Shown one piece after another: positions 1 through 27,090 of a stretch of DNA of 64,000 nucleotides. The stretch comes from a virus. Within the stretch, counting starts at the first letter, position 1. Every line of letters starts with the position of its first letter. A model generated the notes under the pieces. The model ran no database searches, had not been told where the DNA came from, and worked only from the letters and a program-made list of their open reading frames with translations. A program made the position numbers and the translations under genes. The stretch is from positions 152,423 through 216,422 of the IMG/VR virus record IMGVR_UViG_3300009104_001210. The stretch is one strand, 5' to 3'.

Positions 1-167
1 ACACAACCGACCAAGATATAGAGGAAGCAGTATTAGAGGGTGCAAGAACATTTGAAGAAGTACAGAAGAAAACTAAAGTAGGAATAGGTAATCCAAAAGT
101 TCAAATGGATGTAGAACAATTACTTAGATTCTATGTAGAGAAATATTTTGGAGAAGATGCTTTATGA
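1..167 (+). CDS. C-terminal fragment of a BFD-like [2Fe-2S] domain protein lacking the cysteine pair
   Basis: Gene truncated by the left window edge; the reading frame begins at base 3 and stops at 165-167. The 54 visible residues match the end of a BFD-like (bacterioferritin-associated ferredoxin/NifU middle) domain: an acidic helix, GARTFEEVQKKT, then a final amphipathic helix. Family members carry two cysteines in the GxGCGxC loop; here the loop reads GIGNPKVQ, so the cluster ligands appear lost. Its stop overlaps the next start (ATGA), so the two are translationally coupled. The domain may be the tail of a larger protein upstream, so function is uncertain. Confidence 0.55.
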   Translation, partial: TTDQDIEEAVLEGARTFEEVQKKTKVGIGNPKVQMDVEQLLRFYVEKYFGEDAL

Positions 168-490
168 TTACAGAAGCACAAGTTATAGAAAAGTTACGAG
201 GAGTTTATGATCCAGAGATTCCAATCAATCTATATGATTTGGGATTGATATATTCTATAGGTGTAGATGAGAATACAGTAACTATAGATATGTCATTAAC
301 TACACCACATTGTGGATTGAAGGATATGATTATAAATCAAGTAGTTATGGCAGTAGAAACAATAGAAGATGCAGAGTGTGATGTGAGATTAACATTTGAT
401 CCTCAATGGACACCAACTATGTTGAGACCAGAAGCAATTGAAGTGTTGGGTGAAAATCATCCGTTAGCACAAATGGCAATAGGAGTTTAA
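164..490 (+). CDS. DUF59/MIP18-family (SufT/PaaD-like) Fe-S assembly protein
   Basis: 108 aa, the usual length for a stand-alone DUF59 domain. Residues 16-30 carry the family signature DPEIPINLYDLGLIY and a conserved cysteine follows in TTPHCG near residue 50. SufT and PaaD-type proteins help mature Fe-S proteins in the cytoplasm; that role is family knowledge, not shown here. It overlaps the BFD-like gene upstream by four bases, so the pair probably belongs to a small Fe-S/redox operon that continues left of the window. An ATG start is fixed by the ATGA overlap. Confidence 0.85.
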   Translation: MITEAQVIEKLRGVYDPEIPINLYDLGLIYSIGVDENTVTIDMSLTTPHCGLKDMIINQVVMAVETIEDAECDVRLTFDPQWTPTMLRPEAIEVLGENHPLAQMAIGV

Positions 491-731: not shown

Positions 732-938
732 ATGGATATTAGAATAGAATATTGTGTTCAATGAAATTACAAACCAAGAGCTCGTAGTTTACGACAAGAA
801 TTAAGTGATACATTTGGTTATTGGGCTGAATTAAAACCTGGAGAAAGAGGAGCATTTGAAGTGTATGTAAATGGTAATCTAATTTTTTCAAAATTAAAGG
901 AAGATAGATTTCCAAATGAAGGAGAAATAGTATTATGA
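732..938 (+). CDS. SelW-like (Rdx family) selenoprotein with in-frame TGA (Sec)
   Basis: Conceptual 68-aa product read through a TGA at 762-764. The family signature is a beta strand followed by CxxC or CxxU: here IEYCVQ-U-NYKPRA, where TGA sits exactly at the second redox position. The remaining 57 residues continue the Rdx fold to its end: FEVYVNGNLIFSK, then RFPNEGEI. No ATG, GTG or TTG gives a sensible restart directly after the TGA. Rdx proteins are thioredoxin-fold thiol/selenol redox proteins. A short hairpin lies 17-30 bases after the TGA (separate entry). Its stop overlaps the next ATG. No tRNA-Sec is visible in the window, so host Sec machinery would be needed. The alternative is a nonsense mutation or sequencing error in a CxxC gene. 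Confidence 0.8.
782..794 (+). promoter_or_regulatory. bSECIS-like hairpin after the in-frame TGA
   Basis: TCGTA (782-786) and TACGA (790-794) form a perfect 5-bp stem with loop GTT (787-789). The loop begins 23 bases after the TGA and starts with G. Known bacterial SECIS elements lie immediately 3-prime of the UGA, with an apical loop roughly 16-37 nt away and a G at its start, so position and loop base fit. The stem is short and the element is a candidate only. Confidence 0.5.
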
Positions 939-1046: not shown

Positions 1047-2054
1047 ATGAGTCATAAGTTAGAATATATTTGGCTGGATGGTGTAGAACCAACAGCGCAG
1101 TTAAGAAGTAAAACTAAAATAGTATCAAAGTTTGGTATAGAGGGTGGTGTAACAGCAACACAAGCACCAATATGGGGATTTGATGGTTCGTCAACACAAC
1201 AAGCAGAAGGTGGGAGTTCTGATTGTGTGTTGAAACCTGTAAGATTATATCGAAATCCATTGGAAGAAGGTACATTGGTATTATGTGAAGTATGGAATGT
1301 AGATGATACACCACATAAATCTAATACAAGACATGGTTTAGATAATACATTACAGAGTTTAGATCATGATCCAGAAGAGTGGGTTGGATTTGAGCAAGAG
1401 TATACATTATATGAAGGTGGAATACCTTATGGTTGGCCACCCGATTTAAGTGATCCATTACCACAAGGCGATTATTATTGTGGTAGAAATGCTGGAGAAC
1501 ATATAATGAAAGAACATACTGATGCTTGTATAGAAGCAGGTATTAGTATTTGTGGAACTAACGCAGAAGTAATGTTAGGACAATGGGAATATCAGATTGG
1601 TGCAGGTTCTTCATTAGAAATGAGTGATGATTTATGGGTTGCTCGTTGGTTAATGGAAAAGATTTGTGCTGAATATGATGTGGAAGTTGTTTTAGATCCA
1701 AAGCCAGTTAAGGGTGATTGGAATGGTGCAGGTTGTCATACTAATTTCTCTACTAAAGATATGAGAGGACATGGTGGAGATGAACTTATATTTAAGGCGT
1801 GTATGGATTTAGAGAAGGTACATAAAGAACATATGGCAGAATATGGTGAAGGAAACGAAAGACGACTTACGGGACTTCATGAGACTCAGGCTATAGATAC
1901 ATTTAGTTGGGGAGTTTCAGACAGAGGTGCTTCCATTCGTATTCCCTGGCAAGTAGATAAAGATGGTAAAGGATATCTTGAAGATAGAAGACCATCAGCG
2001 AATTGCGATCCATATAGAGTTTGTAAAAAGTTAATTGAGACAATTATTATATGA
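1047..2054 (+). CDS. glnII: Type II (GSII, eukaryotic-like) glutamine synthetase
   Basis: 335 aa, typical of the short GSII class. It makes glutamine from glutamate, ammonia and ATP in the cytoplasm. Landmarks in order: YIWLDG at the N-terminus, FDGSST (residues ~45-50, ammonium-site latch), the FEQEYTL metal site, NAEVMLGQWEYQIG, NGAGCHTN, GNERRLTG, IRIPW, and the C-terminal LEDRRPSANCDPYR. All catalytic motifs are intact, so it should be active. An AAGGAG ribosome site lies 11 bases upstream. It overlaps the following SGNH-like gene by four bases. A second, divergent paralog lies at 4579-5844. In a phage it probably supplies glutamine for purine synthesis (PurF at 7765). Confidence 0.97.
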   Translation: MSHKLEYIWLDGVEPTAQLRSKTKIVSKFGIEGGVTATQAPIWGFDGSSTQQAEGGSSDCVLKPVRLYRNPLEEGTLVLCEVWNVDDTPHKSNTRHGLDNTLQSLDHDPEEWVGFEQEYTLYEGGIPYGWPPDLSDPLPQGDYYCGRNAGEHIMKEHTDACIEAGISICGTNAEVMLGQWEYQIGAGSSLEMSDDLWVARWLMEKICAEYDVEVVLDPKPVKGDWNGAGCHTNFSTKDMRGHGGDELIFKACMDLEKVHKEHMAEYGEGNERRLTGLHETQAIDTFSWGVSDRGASIRIPWQVDKDGKGYLEDRRPSANCDPYRVCKKLIETIII

Positions 2055-4111: not shown

Positions 4112-4582
4112 ATGAGTTATAAAATAGAGAGTTATACAAGAGAAGAATTAGAGTTATTTCCGAATGATGAATATGGATATGTTAAACAGAGAGTATGGTC
4201 TACTGGACAACTTAGTACACTTGAATACTTTGATAGAAATTTTGTAAAAATTTATTTAATAAGAGATGAAAATTTAAAAATAATAGCCTTTTCTTGTGAA
4301 AAAATACCAAGATATGAAGGCTTTGATTTTGAATGGGGATACTCATATGTTGAACCAACATATAGAGGAACTCGATGTTACTTTAAATTATGTAAATATA
4401 AAAGAGATGAGGCTCGACAACAAGGTTTGATTGGTTATACAATATGTTTAAAATCTCAACCCGCTACTGTAAAGTGTGGTAAAATCCTTTGTGATATTAA
4501 AATAGATAATCCATTACATCTTGGAGAAACAGAATCATCTTTTGATAACGAAAATTTAGAATTTTGGGGAATGATGTTATGA
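4112..4582 (+). CDS. GNAT-like acyltransferase-fold protein (tentative)
   Basis: 156 aa. A strand with IAFSCEKI, then EPTYRGTRCYFKLCKYKRDEARQQG, resembles the GNAT motif A region, where a basic-Gly loop binds acyl-CoA before a long helix. The canonical Q/RxxGxG/A is not perfect (YRGTRCYF), so CoA binding is uncertain. The stop overlaps the start of the second glutamine synthetase homolog, suggesting a coupled pair; it might modify that enzyme or a small amine. Function is inference. Confidence 0.5.
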   Translation: MSYKIESYTREELELFPNDEYGYVKQRVWSTGQLSTLEYFDRNFVKIYLIRDENLKIIAFSCEKIPRYEGFDFEWGYSYVEPTYRGTRCYFKLCKYKRDEARQQGLIGYTICLKSQPATVKCGKILCDIKIDNPLHLGETESSFDNENLEFWGMML

Positions 4583-5844
4583 ATGTAGCAATAAAATATA
4601 TTTGGCAGCCAGATCCAGATATAGTTAAATTTGAAGAACTGTATCTAAAACAAGAAACAGATACATATAAAATAAAACTAACCGATTTACCAATTAAAAA
4701 TAGTAAAGAATTGACGAAACGTGAACTACAAACGATTGATTCTGATATAGTGAAACGTGGTTTTATTTTAAAACCAATAGGAATTTGGTCAGATCCTTTA
4801 GAAGATGATACTCCTGATAAAGCACATTATTTAGTATTATGTGAAGATGGTGTATCTAAAGACTCATACCGTGATAAGTTAAAAAAATTATTAGAAAAAA
4901 CAAATTTCTATAATCCCTGGGTTGGAATAGAACAAGAGTATTATCTTTTTCCAAATGAAGATACTACTTCCCCATCAGAACAAGAATTATTTAATATACA
5001 AACATCTGAAGGAGTATGTCAAACTGTTCAAAAACTTCTTGATAACTCAACTCGAAAAAATAATAGAAGATTACTTGAACACTTATGTGTTTATTCTAAA
5101 AACGAATTATCATCATTGGATACACAAGATGATATAGTTTTTGCTTGTGCTAAAATGGGTTTAAAAGTTAATAGGGTACAGGCAGTTAAAGAACAAGGTC
5201 CTGGACATTGGGAAGTACAGTTTGGTCCTACAGAACCATTACAAACTTTAGATGAAACAATGATTGGTCGTTATATTATATGGAAAATAGGTAATGAAGA
5301 ATTAACTGTTTCATTTGAACCAAAACCAAAAGGTTGGTCTGTAGAATATGATCTTTGGGCAGGTTCTGGATTACATTTTAATTATTCTAATGATAAAACA
5401 AGAGCAGAAAGTGTTGAAGATTATTTAGATATTAAAAAAGCTGAAGATAATCCATCATCAATAATTGAAATGGATAAAGAAGAGAGAATAAATCTTATTA
5501 AAAAAGCACCATATACTAAAGCATTATTAAAACAATTAGCTAAAAATCATAGAAAACACGTAACTGAATATGGTATAGGAAATGAAAAAAGACAAGATGG
5601 TGATCACGGAACTACTACTGGTAATGTATTTGTTTTATCAAAAGAAATAGATAATAAAAATGTTTCTGTTAGAATAGTAACTATGGGTTTGAATAAAAGA
5701 TTATTATCCGACGAAGATTATTATGGATTATATCTTGAAGATAGAAGACCAAGTGCAAATGCTAATCCATATAGAGTTGCTTTAAGATATTTCGAAACAG
5801 TTGCAGAAATGCAAAAGAATAATGAAGGTAAAAAAACTAAATAG
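4579..5844 (+). CDS. Divergent glutamine-synthetase-fold ligase (GSII paralog lacking DGSST)
   Basis: 421 aa from the ATG at 4579 that overlaps the upstream stop. Shared GSII motifs are in order: GIEQEYYLF, GHWEVQFGP, AGSGLHFNY, the GIGNEKR loop, SVRIV, and LEDRRPSANANPYR. The FDGSST latch of the 1047-2054 enzyme is missing (the region reads TIDSDIVKRGF), NxAGxHTN is altered, and RIP is RIV. Extra segments make it about 85 residues longer. It may be a glutamine-synthetase-like ligase acting on another amine (gamma-glutamyl ligase type), or a regulatory subunit; not decidable from sequence alone. It is followed by nagB in overlapping frame. Confidence 0.85.
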   Translation: MNVAIKYIWQPDPDIVKFEELYLKQETDTYKIKLTDLPIKNSKELTKRELQTIDSDIVKRGFILKPIGIWSDPLEDDTPDKAHYLVLCEDGVSKDSYRDKLKKLLEKTNFYNPWVGIEQEYYLFPNEDTTSPSEQELFNIQTSEGVCQTVQKLLDNSTRKNNRRLLEHLCVYSKNELSSLDTQDDIVFACAKMGLKVNRVQAVKEQGPGHWEVQFGPTEPLQTLDETMIGRYIIWKIGNEELTVSFEPKPKGWSVEYDLWAGSGLHFNYSNDKTRAESVEDYLDIKKAEDNPSSIIEMDKEERINLIKKAPYTKALLKQLAKNHRKHVTEYGIGNEKRQDGDHGTTTGNVFVLSKEIDNKNVSVRIVTMGLNKRLLSDEDYYGLYLEDRRPSANANPYRVALRYFETVAEMQKNNEGKKTK

Positions 5845-7450: not shown

Positions 7451-7763
7451 ATGTTTATTATGTACTGCTTTAACTGAGCCGGGTCAAGGATTCTATGACC
7501 ATTTAGAAGATGTTCATATGATGCCTATTAGGCGGAAGAGAATTGTACAACCTGAGAATTGGATTCATGGTATGTCTTTAGAGAAAAAGGATATGATGAG
7601 AGAAGAAACACACGATGAATGTATGGAAAGATTTAAATTTAATCATCCTGAATATGGTACTGAACAATGTTGGTGTCCTGATTGTCTTGGTGGAGAAACA
7701 TTAGAAATGGTAAATAAAATTTGTTCTAAACATGGACAACTTTATATAAAGGGTAAACATTGA
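7440..7763 (+). CDS. Small protein with two putative zinc-binding cysteine/histidine clusters
   Basis: 107 aa. The N-terminus CLLC followed by FYDHLEDVH has C2H2 zinc-finger spacing; the C-terminal half carries CWCPDC and then ICSKHG. Basic patch IRRKRIV lies between. It could bind nucleic acid, but no family is recognised. It sits between the SGNH-like gene and purF, one base before the purF GTG. Confidence 0.55.
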   Translation: MKTKCLLCTALTEPGQGFYDHLEDVHMMPIRRKRIVQPENWIHGMSLEKKDMMREETHDECMERFKFNHPEYGTEQCWCPDCLGGETLEMVNKICSKHGQLYIKGKH

Positions 7764-7764
7764 A

Positions 7765-9204
7765 GTGTGTGGCATAGCAGGTATTTATAGTCATAGGTCT
7801 GTAGCACCAGAATTGTATGAGTGTATAGTTCATTTACAACATAGGGGACAAGATGCCGCAGGGATGATGACATATGATGAACGTATGCACAAACATAAAG
7901 GATTGGGATTAGCTAGAGACGTATTTACAAAAAATAATATATCTTTACTTAAAGGTAATGTTGGTATTTCACATAATAGATATCCTACACATGGAGAGTT
8001 TGGTCATGGTGAGATACAACCCGTATGGACTTCCGTACCATATGGAATAGCAATAGCACATAATGGACAGATAACAAACTATGATGAATTAGTAGAAGAA
8101 GTTACACAAAAGGAAAAGAGATATCTTAATACCACAAGTGATACTGAAGTTTTATTACATATATTAGCAAATGAATTAGATAAGAATGGAATACCAAAAA
8201 CTTCAGAAGAGTTTTTTAATCATTTATGTGAGGCAGTTAGTACTATATTTACAAAAGTTAAAGGGGCTTATTCTGTTACAGGTATTATTGTTGGAAAAGG
8301 ATTAATTGTTTTTAGAGATCCACGAGGTATTAGACCATTAGTTAAAGGTGAAAGAGATGATAACGGTAAAAAGGAGTATATCTTTTCATCAGAAAATACT
8401 ATGTTTTATTCATTAGGTTATGAACCAAAGGGTAATGTATTACCTGGAGAACTTATTTACATAGATGAAAGTGGTAAGTATTTTAGCAAACGATTAGTTA
8501 AGGAAGAATTTAATCCTTGTATATTTGAGTATGTATATTTTTCACGACCAGATGCAGTACTGAATGATGTAGGTGTGTATCGTTCAAGATTGAGAATGGG
8601 TCAGAATTTAGCATATGCATGGATGAAGAAGTATCCATATATAGTACCTGATATAGTTATACCTGCACCGAGTACGGCAAATACCGCCGCATTATCATTT
8701 GCTCATGAAATAGATGTTAGATATTCAGAAGGATTGTATAAGAATCCGTTTGTTGGTAGAACATTTATTATGCCAGGACAAGAAGAACGTAAAAGTTCTG
8801 TTAAACATAAACTCGTACCACAAGATACAGAGATACGAGATAAGAAAGTATTAATAGTAGATGATAGCATTGTTCGTGGTAATACAAGTAAAGAGATAGT
8901 AAGAATGGTAAAAGATTTTGGAGCAAAAGAAGTGTATTTTGTTAGTGCTTGTCCACCAATAAAACACCCTTGTTATTATGGTGTTGATATGCCAACTAAA
9001 GAGGAATTAATTGCTGGAATTAATAAAATAGATACTATTAAAAAAGATTTAGGAGTTGATATTTTACTATATCAAGAGATAGATGATTTAGTTGAAGCAG
9101 TAACACGAAGAGGTGATCATCATATAGAGAATCCATGTATGGCTTGTCTTGATGGACACTATGTAGTTAATGGAAGAAAAGTTCATGAATTGGTACTTAA
9201 TTAA
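7765..9204 (+). CDS. purF: Amidophosphoribosyltransferase (glutamine PRPP amidotransferase)
   Basis: 479 aa. It catalyses the first committed step of purine synthesis: PRPP plus glutamine to phosphoribosylamine. The GTG start at 7765 is fixed because the N-terminal nucleophile must be Cys2 (CGIAGIYSHR). Glutaminase domain residues ~1-230 include HRGQDAAG and SDTEVLLH; DPRGIRPL follows. The phosphoribosyltransferase half has the PRPP loop VLIVDDSIVRGNTSK. Length and motifs match active cellular PurF. Overlaps the PIG-L gene by one base. Purine genes in phages are established; with two glutamine synthetase homologs nearby the glutamine supply may be local. Confidence 0.97.
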   Translation: MCGIAGIYSHRSVAPELYECIVHLQHRGQDAAGMMTYDERMHKHKGLGLARDVFTKNNISLLKGNVGISHNRYPTHGEFGHGEIQPVWTSVPYGIAIAHNGQITNYDELVEEVTQKEKRYLNTTSDTEVLLHILANELDKNGIPKTSEEFFNHLCEAVSTIFTKVKGAYSVTGIIVGKGLIVFRDPRGIRPLVKGERDDNGKKEYIFSSENTMFYSLGYEPKGNVLPGELIYIDESGKYFSKRLVKEEFNPCIFEYVYFSRPDAVLNDVGVYRSRLRMGQNLAYAWMKKYPYIVPDIVIPAPSTANTAALSFAHEIDVRYSEGLYKNPFVGRTFIMPGQEERKSSVKHKLVPQDTEIRDKKVLIVDDSIVRGNTSKEIVRMVKDFGAKEVYFVSACPPIKHPCYYGVDMPTKEELIAGINKIDTIKKDLGVDILLYQEIDDLVEAVTRRGDHHIENPCMACLDGHYVVNGRKVHELVLN

Positions 9205-9704
9205 TGATTAATAAGATAATGATTGTAGCGCACCCTGATGATGAAGCACTATTTGGTGGCGCTGAATTATTATCACACCCAAAAGAATATAAAGTTGTAG
9301 TAGTAGATGAATATCACAATGATGTTAGACAAAAAGAGTTTAAGGATTCCATGCAATTTATAGGAATTACAGATTTTGAACATTGGACAGGTTATAAAGG
9401 TGGAGAAGATTATCATAGAGAAAAACTTATTTATGAGTTATTGAGAGTATTGAGAGAAAAAAAATGGGAAAAGATTGTAACTCATAATAGAGCAGGTGAA
9501 TATGGTCACCCAAGACATAGAGCATTGCATGATATATTAAATCATTTAAGACCTGAAATACTATGGCAGTTTGATAAAGGTAAAGAAAGATTACCACAAG
9601 ATTTATTAATTAAGAAAAGAGATTTATTAAAAGTATATGGAAGCCAAAGAGATGTTTTAGATTGGTTTAGTCCCTGGTACGAGAAAATAACGAAGGTAAA
9701 TTGA
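9204..9704 (+). CDS. PIG-L/LmbE-family deacetylase
   Basis: 166 aa. The AHPDDE motif at residues 9-14 and GHPRHRALHD later supply the zinc ligands and catalytic Asp of the PIG-L family, which removes acetyl groups from N-acetylglucosamine conjugates. Shorter than most family members (about 220-270 aa) but with both key motifs. Set between purF and guaB and near nagB; it might deacetylate an amino sugar before NagB acts, which is speculative. The stop overlaps the guaB start. Confidence 0.85.
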   Translation: MINKIMIVAHPDDEALFGGAELLSHPKEYKVVVVDEYHNDVRQKEFKDSMQFIGITDFEHWTGYKGGEDYHREKLIYELLRVLREKKWEKIVTHNRAGEYGHPRHRALHDILNHLRPEILWQFDKGKERLPQDLLIKKRDLLKVYGSQRDVLDWFSPWYEKITKVN

Positions 9705-10741
9705 TGAGAAGAGCATTAGCATATGATGACATAAATATTACACCTAAATATTCAGATGTGGAACATAGAGACGACATAAATATTACTACAAGATTTACTA
9801 AGAAAACTTTATTAGATATACCAATTGTATCTTCACCTATGGATACTATTACTGGATTTGATATGGCTTTTGCTATGATGGTGTTGGGTGGAGTTGGTGT
9901 TGTACATAGATTTAATACTATTGAAGAACAATCATTGATAATGAATCAGTTACATACTGAAAAGTATGATCATTGTGAATTACCATTATCTGCAGCTATT
10001 GGAGTTACAGGGGATTATTTAGAAAGGGCACAAGAATTAATTAAGAACGGATGTAATGTTCTACTTATAGATGTAGCGCATGGACATCATAAATTAGTAG
10101 GAGAAGCAATTGAAGAGGTCAAAACCAAGTTATCAGGAGTTGAAATCATTGCGGGATCAGTTGCGACAGGAGAAGCGTGTGAATACTTATGTGAAAAAGG
10201 AGCGGACTCGATTAGAGTCGGAATTGGAAATGGAAGTTTATGTGAAACGAGAATTAGAACGGGTGTCGGAATCCCTCAAGTGTCTGCTCTCATTGATTGC
10301 GTCGCCGTTGCTGATAGGTTTGATGTTCCTATTATTGGTGATGGTGGGATCCGTAATGTTGGTGATGTGTGTAAAGGACTTGCTTGTGGGGCTGACTCGA
10401 TTATGTTGGGCTCCCTGTTATCAGGTACTAAAGAAACTCCAGGCACGATTGAAAAAATAGGCCAATGGCCGAATGAAATGTTACATAAAAAATATAGAGG
10501 TTCAGCATCATTGGACTCTAAAAAATCAAGAGGGGATAATAAAAATGTCGAAGGTAATCACAAAGTTATACCATACAAAGGGAAGGTCAAAAGAATTATA
10601 CAAGATATACAAGAGGGAATTCGTAGTTCTTTCAGCTATGTTGGTGCTAACAATTTTCCTGAGTTTTATTCTAAAGTAGAGTTAATAGAAGTTACAAGAG
10701 CAGGAAATATTGAAGGTATGCCACACCTTCTTAATACTTAA
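9704..10741 (+). CDS. guaB: IMP dehydrogenase, CBS-less
   Basis: 345 aa from the ATG at 9704. IMPDH oxidises IMP to XMP for GMP synthesis. Visible motifs: FDD-like YDDINITPKYS start, SSPMDTITG, GSVATG, the catalytic loop GIGNGSLCETRIRTGVGIPQ with the active-site Cys, IIGDGGIRNVGD and the mobile flap YRGSASLDSK. The regulatory CBS pair is absent, giving a compact catalytic core. GMP reductase is a less likely alternative, because SPMDT and the YRG flap follow IMPDH. The stretch 10130-10460 is clearly richer in G+C than either flank. It ends just before the tmRNA gene. Confidence 0.93.
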   Translation: MRRALAYDDINITPKYSDVEHRDDINITTRFTKKTLLDIPIVSSPMDTITGFDMAFAMMVLGGVGVVHRFNTIEEQSLIMNQLHTEKYDHCELPLSAAIGVTGDYLERAQELIKNGCNVLLIDVAHGHHKLVGEAIEEVKTKLSGVEIIAGSVATGEACEYLCEKGADSIRVGIGNGSLCETRIRTGVGIPQVSALIDCVAVADRFDVPIIGDGGIRNVGDVCKGLACGADSIMLGSLLSGTKETPGTIEKIGQWPNEMLHKKYRGSASLDSKKSRGDNKNVEGNHKVIPYKGKVKRIIQDIQEGIRSSFSYVGANNFPEFYSKVELIEVTRAGNIEGMPHLLNT

Positions 10742-10747
10742 TAATAT

Positions 10748-11182
10748 GGGGCTGAATGGTTTCGACAGATGCTATTTGATAATATAGTGCAACGGAGTTT
10801 GAGTAAGACTTGCTATAAAAGACTCACAAACCCAAAATGGCGATAAATCGCTACAAGGGTTGGAAATTGATTGGCATTTAGCCAATACCGAACAGATGTT
10901 TGACACTTATGTTGAACCTGCAAGGGCTTCCCAACCAACTTACGCATACGCATAAGTTACTGAGTTACCTAACACTCGGTCATAAAATGAGTTAGGTGGT
11001 AGGATGGTTGGTATATGTCTTTGAGTAGGAATTAGACGATAAAGAAACCTATCAGTTAAACTCATCTGAGTAAATGAGGTATGGTGGGTTGTTAGTTGAC
11101 TACCGATTTGGAAACTAACTAAGTTGTAAATGACTATTTATTAAAAGTAGACTGGACGCGGGTTCGAATCCCGCCAGCTCCA
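10748..11182 (+). ncRNA. ssrA: tmRNA
   Basis: The 5-prime end GGGGCTGAATGGTTTCGACA and the 3-prime end (T-arm GCGGGTTCGAATCCCGC, then CAGCTCC) form the tRNA-like acceptor of tmRNA: GGGGCTG pairs fully with CAGCTCC, with the G-U pair expected. 435 nt, at the long end of the usual range; CCA is not encoded. Between them are hairpins such as ATTGGC/GCCAAT (loop ATTTA) and ACCTA-ACTC/GAGT-TAGGT. The best tag reading frame is 10920-10955: Ala-Arg-Ala-Ser-Gln-Pro-Thr-Tyr-Ala-Tyr-Ala-stop, with A at position -4 before the resume codon. The YAYA end resembles YALAA degradation tags. tmRNA rescues stalled ribosomes. Confidence 0.95.
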
Positions 11183-11202
11183 CTAAAATTGAGGAGAATA
11201 TT

Positions 11203-24579: not shown

Positions 24580-25528
24580 AGATATTTTATATGAAGATCA
24601 AGCGTGGAAAACTGTTAAGTTTTTATTAGATGTAAAAAAAATATCTAATGAGGTTGTAGATATGCACAATATAGAATCTATAAAGCAATTAAATGTTTCA
24701 AGTGATGATATATGTTTTGCTAGATTTGGTCATCATTTTGATGATAAGATAGCAACTAATAAAGCATATGATGTATTAACTCAAAAATTTAATAAAATAT
24801 ATCCTTCAAAAGACGCATATTATTATTATGATGATAAATTAAAGCAATATGAATTTATGTTAGAAAATGATATACCTTGTTTGAAAACATATTATGTAGG
24901 TAGTAAAGAAGAGATAGAAAAATTAAATATAAAATTTCCTATAGTTACTAAAAAAACTTGGGGGGCTGGAACTGAACAAGTTAATAAGTGGGATGATTAT
25001 GAATCTATTGTTGATAATAAAGATACTCGAAGTTGGACAGGGGGATCTATATTTCCATGTTTAGTTCAAGAATATAAAGATGTAGATTATGATATTAGAG
25101 TTAGAATTTTAAACTCTAAAGTTTTCTTTACTAAAAGAATGCACGAATTTAAAACAAAAAATAAAGATAATTTTCCATATGGTACAAAAGAGATTCTTAA
25201 AAAAGATAGAATAAAATATCATTTACCACCATATGAAGTTCCTGTAGCATTACCAATAAATGATTTAGCAGAAGTAGAAGATATTATACCTATAGTAGAA
25301 AAATTACATAAGATTCAAAATGAAAAATTGAATAGTAATTTTGTGGTGTGGGATATTCTTAGAACAAATGAAGGAATAAAAATTCTTGAATTTAGTCATG
25401 TTACAGTATATAAAAGTTTTCCACAAATTTATTATGATATAGAATATAAAGAAGCAAATAAATTAACAATAAAAAATCGTGAACATTTTTTTTATTTGTA
25501 TAACGAAATATTAAAAGGATTAATATGA
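24560..25528 (+). CDS. ATP-grasp ligase (RimK/glutathione-synthetase-like)
   Basis: 322 aa. FPIVTKKTWGAGTEQV forms the ATP-grasp lysine and glycine loop; LVQEYKDVDYDIRVRIL is the second nucleotide-binding segment, and NFVVWDILRTNEGIKILEFS carries the metal-binding D and E. Such enzymes join a carboxylate to an amine. The substrate is not apparent; it could be an amino acid or peptide tied to the hydroxylase and halogenase next door. Overlaps both neighbours. Confidence 0.82.
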   Translation: MKFYLHKDILYEDQAWKTVKFLLDVKKISNEVVDMHNIESIKQLNVSSDDICFARFGHHFDDKIATNKAYDVLTQKFNKIYPSKDAYYYYDDKLKQYEFMLENDIPCLKTYYVGSKEEIEKLNIKFPIVTKKTWGAGTEQVNKWDDYESIVDNKDTRSWTGGSIFPCLVQEYKDVDYDIRVRILNSKVFFTKRMHEFKTKNKDNFPYGTKEILKKDRIKYHLPPYEVPVALPINDLAEVEDIIPIVEKLHKIQNEKLNSNFVVWDILRTNEGIKILEFSHVTVYKSFPQIYYDIEYKEANKLTIKNREHFFYLYNEILKGLI

Positions 25529-27090
25529 AGAAAGTTATTATAGTTGGTGGTGGATTTGCAGGTTACTTAACAGCGTTGTTTTTAAATAAAAAATTTCCTA
25601 AATTAAAAATTGATATAATAAAATCATCAGATAAAGAACAAATTTCTGCTGGAGAACAAACAGGCAAAGAACAACTACAATTGTTTTTTGAATCATTAGG
25701 AATTGAAGAAACTGAATGGTTTAGTAGAACAAAATCTTTTTTAAAAATAGGTAATTCTTTTGTTGGGTGGGGAAACCGTGAAAATTTTGATCCTCGAGTT
25801 GGTGGACCAGATGTAGTTAATCATAGTTTTGTAATGGAAAATAAATTATTACCTTTACTTAGGAATGGTGGTGGTATGAAATCCGTAAAGGATTCTATGA
25901 AATATAATGATAAGTTACATACTGAATTATATCAAAATAGTTTTTTAGAAACACCCATAGATAATACGGATGATTATATAGATAGTTTTAAAAAACACTT
26001 TAAAAATAGTTTTTTTAATAGAAAGAATAATAGAGCCATAGCTCATATGCATGATTGGTTAGAGATAGGTAAATTTATAGAAACTAAGTTTGATGATAAT
26101 GTTAAAATAATTACTGATCATATAACTGATGTGGTTGTAGATAAAAAAAATAATACTATAGAATATCTTGTTAATAAAGATAAAGAAAAGATTAAAGCAG
26201 ATCACTACGTAGATTGTACAGGTATTAGTAGAATTTTGATTTCTAAACTTAGTAAAGTTGTAGATATTAGTGATGAATATCCTGTAAATAGTGCCGTATT
26301 TGGTCCAGTAGAATATATAGATAGAACTAAAGAGATGGTGCCAACCTTATATACTACTGCTTTTAAAAATGGTTATTCATTTAAAACACCATTACAACAT
26401 AGGATAGGAACAGGATATGTCTATTCAGATAAGTATATTAGTAAAGATGAAGCAATAGATGAGATAAATGATTATTGGGATGGTAGATTTAAGTCAGATC
26501 AAGTTAATCATTTAAAATGGACTCCATCTTATGTAGTTAAACCTTTTCAGAAAAATTGTAGCGCTGTAGGATTAGCAGGACAATTTGATTGTCCAATGGA
26601 ATCTACAGTATTTACTCAGATATCAACTGCTCTTCAACAATTAGGAAATTATTTAAATAGAGATAATAAATTATTATACATGAATCGTTCTGATATAAGA
26701 GATGAAGATATGTTAAATTATTGTAATACTTGGACTGAATATACTTTTCATAATACAAGACATTTTAAACAAATGATGTTTTATACTACAAATAGAGATG
26801 ATAGCGAATTTTGGAAGAATATTAAAACACTTAATTATTCTGATATTTTTTATAAAAAATTAAGTTTCTTTTTAGACAATTCATTTGATTATATAATAGA
26901 AAATAGAAATAAGTTTCCTGATTATACTCCACCAACAAATTTTAATATTAATGAAGATAGATTTTGGAGAGTATATCAAAAAGGATTTAAAGGATATTTT
27001 GATTATATGGGAATAAGGGGTGTAGGACATAGTATGATATTAGATGTTCATAATTGGTTAATGATTCTTGCGTATAAAAAATACATTTAA
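25525..27090 (+). CDS. Flavin-dependent tryptophan-halogenase-family protein
   Basis: 521 aa. The FAD motif VIIVGGGFAGYLTALFL starts the protein; GEQTGKEQLQLFFESLGI parallels the GEATVPxi region, and SAVGLAGQFDCPMESTVF is the usual halogenase C-terminal FAD/substrate motif. The diagnostic WxWxIP reads YSFKTPLQHRIGTGYVY, so both tryptophans are lost. Family members chlorinate or brominate indole or pyrrole; this one may oxidise a different substrate. Related genes occur in marine phages. Coupled by ATGA to the ATP-grasp gene; last of the cluster. Confidence 0.85.
   Translation: MKKVIIVGGGFAGYLTALFLNKKFPKLKIDIIKSSDKEQISAGEQTGKEQLQLFFESLGIEETEWFSRTKSFLKIGNSFVGWGNRENFDPRVGGPDVVNHSFVMENKLLPLLRNGGGMKSVKDSMKYNDKLHTELYQNSFLETPIDNTDDYIDSFKKHFKNSFFNRKNNRAIAHMHDWLEIGKFIETKFDDNVKIITDHITDVVVDKKNNTIEYLVNKDKEKIKADHYVDCTGISRILISKLSKVVDISDEYPVNSAVFGPVEYIDRTKEMVPTLYTTAFKNGYSFKTPLQHRIGTGYVYSDKYISKDEAIDEINDYWDGRFKSDQVNHLKWTPSYVVKPFQKNCSAVGLAGQFDCPMESTVFTQISTALQQLGNYLNRDNKLLYMNRSDIRDEDMLNYCNTWTEYTFHNTRHFKQMMFYTTNRDDSEFWKNIKTLNYSDIFYKKLSFFLDNSFDYIIENRNKFPDYTPPTNFNINEDRFWRVYQKGFKGYFDYMGIRGVGHSMILDVHNWLMILAYKKYI

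Follow-up and report, generated by a model that had tools for sequence, protein, structure and literature searches.

A phage gene very probably encoding a bacterial-type selenoprotein W, with an in-frame UGA and a covarying SECIS hairpin

A short reading frame in a phage genome is interrupted by a TGA at its eleventh codon, which raises the question of whether this codon ends translation or specifies selenocysteine (Sec), and, if the latter, whose machinery would decode it and what the phage might gain. The frame lies in a stretch of 64,000 nucleotides (the window) that forms the last 64 kb of the 216,422-base virus record IMGVR_UViG_3300009104_001210, the viral origin of which is indicated by a terminase, a gp6-like baseplate protein, five tRNAs and a tmRNA. 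We consider it very likely that the gene encodes a genuine bacterial-type selenoprotein W (SelW) of the phage, with UGA decoded as Sec by host machinery; Sec insertion, the host and the substrate are what we infer from the comparisons below.

The gene runs on the plus strand (732–938) from an ATG at 732 to a TGA stop codon at 936–938, and inspection of the sequence places a Shine-Dalgarno-like site, GGAGGG, at 719–724 on the same strand, 7 nt before the ATG. Its single interruption is the TGA at 762–764 (plus strand), the predicted Sec codon. With codon 11 as U, the 68-residue product reads MDIRIEYCVQ-U-NYKPRARSLRQELSDTFGYWAELKPGERGAFEVYVNGNLIFSKLKEDRFPNEGEIVL. This read-through protein is a member of the Pfam family Rdx (PF10262; 77.7 bits, cut-off 22.6), a search of the virus's own record for SelW gave 71.4 bits, and at the sequence level the SelW profile picks up mouse SelW and bacterial relatives; PHROGs held no family for the protein. 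The first-pass annotation had placed the TGA exactly where Rdx/SelW proteins carry Cys or Sec, and the codon does coincide with the second redox position of a CxxU motif, C8-V-Q-U11, which follows strand 1 and whose C8 and U11 positions are invariant in the alignment. The AlphaFold model (mean pLDDT 90.8) adopts a predicted thioredoxin-like beta-alpha-beta-beta-beta-alpha fold. In the alignment, the phage protein lacks the greater part of the helix region that its relatives have at the C terminus. Foldseek matched the model to SelW-related structures with TM of about 0.83–0.89 (0.89 to 2fa8 and 2p0g). The fold is common to phage SelW and the Cys-containing Rdx/SelW proteins of PDB 2fa8, 2p0g and 3dex, which we take to carry Cys at the redox position; these differ from phage SelW in having Cys for Sec and a normal codon, for which a SECIS element is not needed.

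Single-base changes from TGC or TGT to TGA happen, and the TGA might have arisen through faulty sequencing or assembly, or by a nonsense mutation in a Cys gene on its way to decay. This is hardly credible, since the same TGA is found in a second, non-identical record and in all of the closest cellular and all of the viral relatives found, and the sequence beyond it bears the mark of selection. The second record, IMGVR_UViG_3300009126_000002, is 99.78% identical over 4,052 bases, with nine differing bases elsewhere and none in the SelW gene. Among cellular genome contigs, the 30 closest relatives, which include Poribacteria, Planctomycetota, Campylobacteraceae, Binatota and others, all have TGA at codon 11, and a SelW match was present in 95 of the 298 Campylobacterota genomes sampled, nearly all with exactly one in-frame TGA. 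Cys occupies the codon-11 column in more distant homologues (Neorhizobium, Pseudoalteromonas); Cys forms were seen in loci L079 and L081. Close relatives that stop at the TGA and have decayed downstream of it were looked for, and the relatives instead keep the TGA and conserve what follows. Pairwise dN/dS 3' of the TGA is mostly 0.1–0.5, with 0.08–0.09 for locus L038 against L057 and L053, while the value of 0.74 for the very close pair L053/L057 reflects four changes and is uninformative. These ratios indicate that the sequence 3' of the TGA is under purifying selection, and the earlier claim that the family frame continues past the TGA holds. As a separate observation, the Rdx annotation on a Thermomicrobium roseum plasmid begins downstream of an in-frame TGA at CxxU, and its N-terminus was probably missed.

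Stop-codon recoding occurs in some phages, and TGA might be a sense codon throughout this genome. The probability of such a reassigned code is practically nil, given that 21 of the 69 open reading frames in the window end in TGA, that a tRNA with anticodon UCA is absent, and that, among TGA extensions of at least 50 codons beside a redox-type motif, SelW was the only one recognizable as a protein by inspection. Likewise, when the window and the 10 kb upstream were scanned for additional selenoproteins, SelW alone emerged, and the remaining frames looked like chance.

The first-pass annotation had also pointed to a 5-bp hairpin with a G-starting loop 23 bases past the TGA. The hairpin exists as described: UCGUA-GUU-UACGA at 782–794 (plus strand) has a five-pair stem (782–786/790–794) that starts 18 nt downstream of the TGA and a GUU loop (787–789) whose G is the 23rd base after it. 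Bacterial SECIS models have a usual range of distances between UGA and hairpin, and this hairpin falls within it. On its own it was a weak argument, since thermodynamic folding of the region downstream of the TGA by itself gave no signal (z about 0); the comparative data make it a strong one, and point to a minimal bacterial SECIS element. A hairpin lies at equal distance from the UGA in cellular relatives (CAGCCA-GUU-UGGCUG, GGCGACCG-GUC-UGGUCGCC, CCGUCA-GUU-UGGCGG) and in viral ones (CUCUCA-GUU-UGAGAG, CUCUUA-GUU-UAAGAG, CCCUUA-GUU-UAAGGG, GGCAGAAA-GUC-UUUCUGCU), with compensatory changes between them and, in one subgroup, a bulged pairing instead of a perfect stem. The covariance test that had been proposed for 782–794 gave a covariation of 0.585 against 0.215 (sd 0.034) in shuffled alignments and at most 0.289 at slid positions, with 92.6% of cells paired across 19 distinct rows; for viral sequences only, it was 0.414 against 0.229 shuffled and at most 0.210 slid. 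An exchange of CUC..UUG for CUU..UUA keeps the base pair while both Leu codons change synonymously, suggesting that selection acts on the RNA itself. When the window gene was recoded synonymously with its own codon usage, 0.5% of recodings yielded a five-pair stem at the hairpin site (p about 0.005); the same test was weaker individually for the other viral sequences, at 0.03–0.17 each.

Low-level read-through of stop codons is possible, and a near-cognate or suppressor tRNA might accordingly place one of the standard residues, Trp or Cys, rather than Sec at the UGA. We regard this as very improbable, because the record holds no UCA or suppressor tRNA, the UGA sits exactly at the Sec/Cys position of the family, and a covarying SECIS hairpin would be purposeless. 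Decoding as Sec, the reading that we prefer, requires a dedicated machinery, which the phage does not seem to carry: no SelB, no tRNA-Sec over the cut-off and, among its five tRNAs, none with anticodon UCA was found in its record. Sub-threshold tRNA-Sec matches there were rejected, as they coincide with tRNA-Cys and tRNA-Glu. Nor was a SelB match or a tRNA-Sec over the cut-off found in 20 other viral records, where absence is only suggestive as most are fragments; of five sub-threshold matches in other viral records, the three that were checked are tRNA-Tyr and tRNA-Gly. Expression of the phage gene must therefore rely on SelA, SelB, SelC and SelD of the host. SelB exceeded its curated cut-off in 15 of the 16 cellular SelW carriers tested, which, with neither SelB nor tRNA-Sec found in the phage record, fits the earlier proposal that the virus would use these host components.

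A possible host is hinted at by a tree of 78 columns, in which the SelW of the window groups with Campylobacteraceae SelW (98/88) and the remaining 12 viral proteins cluster apart from it with weak support (88/85). This grouping and the low GC content (31%) make a Campylobacterota-like host possible. By terminase and baseplate sequence (about 43–54% identity), however, the isolated phages closest to this one infect Flavobacterium and Microcystis and lack a SelW gene; neither host group is known to decode Sec, which counts to some degree against the Sec reading. The tmRNA gene (10748–11185; Rfam 77.5 bits) has one possible tag frame ending in ...QPTYAYA rather than in the usual ...LAA type, and reading the tag in three frames yielded no host clue.

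The first-pass annotation had considered a single virus, which proved too narrow a scope. We scanned IMG/VR with a degenerate pattern, I-E-Y-C-x-x-UGA-x-Y-x-P, in which the loop G was not required, and all 20 matched stretches were SelW frames with an in-frame TGA and a loop G. A wider pattern matched 67 contigs, all SelW-like with an in-frame TGA, that encode 52 distinct proteins, two of them cut by a contig end; as this pattern demands AGY in the loop, the conservation of loop G among its matches is partly built in. The same holds for the 43 distinct viral sequences (43/43) whose loop G falls within the hairpin loop of a local fold, since the wider pattern partly selects for G. One genotype, that of L046/L048 with a GGU loop, was recovered by the first pattern only. 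Combined, the two overlapping scans give, by locus count, at least 68 contigs and 53 distinct proteins, many of the contigs being short and viral by IMG/VR classification. The search for C or U at position 11 thus found TGA in these 68 viral contigs, as in the 30 cellular relatives. Cys counterparts of these patterns hit 2, 0 and 7 stretches of IMG/VR, none of them SelW (L058, L059 and L136–L142 are unrelated reading frames), although these patterns are selective and could miss viral Cys forms. A further candidate, L003, was rejected for its weak match (58% over 19 residues). Five more divergent viral proteins are Rdx members by Pfam, one barely above the cut-off.

The neighborhoods of these genes differ. 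SelW lies near gp32 and UvsX in L048, near a gp6 baseplate gene in L043, near gp32 in L088, and near ribonucleotide reductase and primase genes in L110, while in L107 a T4-like gp43 polymerase with 52% identity to that of cyanophage S-SM2 is just upstream and UvsX and gp41 are downstream. Judging by these genes, several SelW contigs are those of T4-like phages, and the several different contexts imply repeated movement of SelW between phages. In the record under study, genes for cysteine desulfurase and NifU_N lie just before the window and are followed by a SufT-like gene and then by SelW, an arrangement that might hint at SelW helping to handle sulfur/selenium or Fe-S during infection. Since the other contigs examined place SelW beside replication or structural genes, we think a general redox function likelier than one tied to Fe-S assembly.

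Several other genes of the record deserve mention in their own right. The cysteine desulfurase and NifU_N genes (the latter with a weak BFD-like domain; L037, 8280–10167) and the SufT/MIP18-like FeS_assembly_P gene upstream of SelW (164–490, plus strand) form an Fe-S assembly cluster that is unusual for a phage, and a SET-domain protein is encoded at 7462–7908 of L037. Downstream of SelW and in the same direction is a glutamine-synthetase-like gene (1047–2054, plus strand); it and a second one at 4564–5844 have partial Gln-synt_C matches and lie near a glutamine amidotransferase/phosphoribosyltransferase-like protein (7765–9204). An IMP dehydrogenase/GMP reductase gene (335.7 bits) occupies 9701–10741. 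Tryptophan-halogenase-like genes (phrog_2928) are present in the window (25525–27090) and in two other SelW-carrying contigs (L122, 143–1804; L130, 9936–11465).

Taken together, we propose that during infection a ribosome would reach the UGA at codon 11, that the hairpin would recruit, via its loop G, the SelB-GTP-Sec-tRNA-Sec complex of the host, and that Sec would be inserted in place of termination, yielding a putative thioredoxin-fold CxxU thiol/selenol oxidoreductase. The phage would bring the SelW gene alone, leaving all four Sel components to be provided by the host, and the usefulness of SelW would be limited to Sec-decoding hosts. Most likely, SelW is an auxiliary metabolic gene that serves redox homeostasis or the reduction of a specific protein thiol, its presumed substrate, during replication. 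SelW is found in just a small part of viral contigs, and it might instead be a passive hitch-hiker that is Sec-translated in a Sec-decoding host while the phage gains nothing; we find this improbable, as the gene recurs in many lineages and several contexts, some adjoining core replication genes, and is under apparent purifying selection with the SECIS retained.

Phage SelW has much in common with the bacterial SelW-like selenoproteins described from Campylobacterota and from Sargasso Sea/GOS data (PMC1088965, PMC2398784, PMC4607533), namely the PF10262 family, the Sec position in CxxU, the UGA, the SECIS distance and the invariant loop G. It differs from them in being phage-encoded without a Sec machinery of its own, and most phage versions form their own groups, whereas that of the window is nearest to Campylobacteraceae (in a short alignment). 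Like the auxiliary metabolic genes of T4-like marine phages, SelW is an accessory beside core genes such as gp43, UvsX, gp32 and gp6, but we found none of those reported as needing Sec insertion. Among animal viruses, molluscum contagiosum virus encodes a selenoprotein, a glutathione peroxidase, which is likewise a virus gene on host Sec machinery; however, it is an unrelated protein with a eukaryotic SECIS in the 3'-UTR, in contrast to the bacterial in-frame SECIS of phage SelW. The open-access literature on phage and viral selenoproteins yielded no phage case, with reports elsewhere being possible, and the words phage and virus are absent from a 2026 review of prokaryotic selenoproteomes and from a bacterial prediction paper. 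The 50,697 INPHARED phage records likewise held no convincing match to either viral SelW subfamily.

SelW-like proteins were the most frequent family in a marine selenoprotein survey (PMC2398784), and a later survey reported no or very few viral sequences in families besides RNR II, plastocyanin and Cu-Zn SOD (PMC9402790). We think it likely, if less so than for the selenoprotein itself, that SelW recurs as an auxiliary gene in marine T4-like and related phages, with Sec kept in every instance found, that the marine SelW-like selenoproteome, so far assigned to bacteria, is in part viral, and that SelW marks phages with Sec-decoding hosts. Standard gene callers stop at the UGA or start past it, and such genes are therefore missed; marine selenoprotein surveys merit re-reading, as their top family may be partly viral. 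If our reading is true, use of the 21st amino acid would extend to phages, the selenium status of the host would be a condition for the expression of a phage gene, and CxxU together with a SECIS would be a sequence marker that predicts Sec-decoding hosts of uncultured phages.
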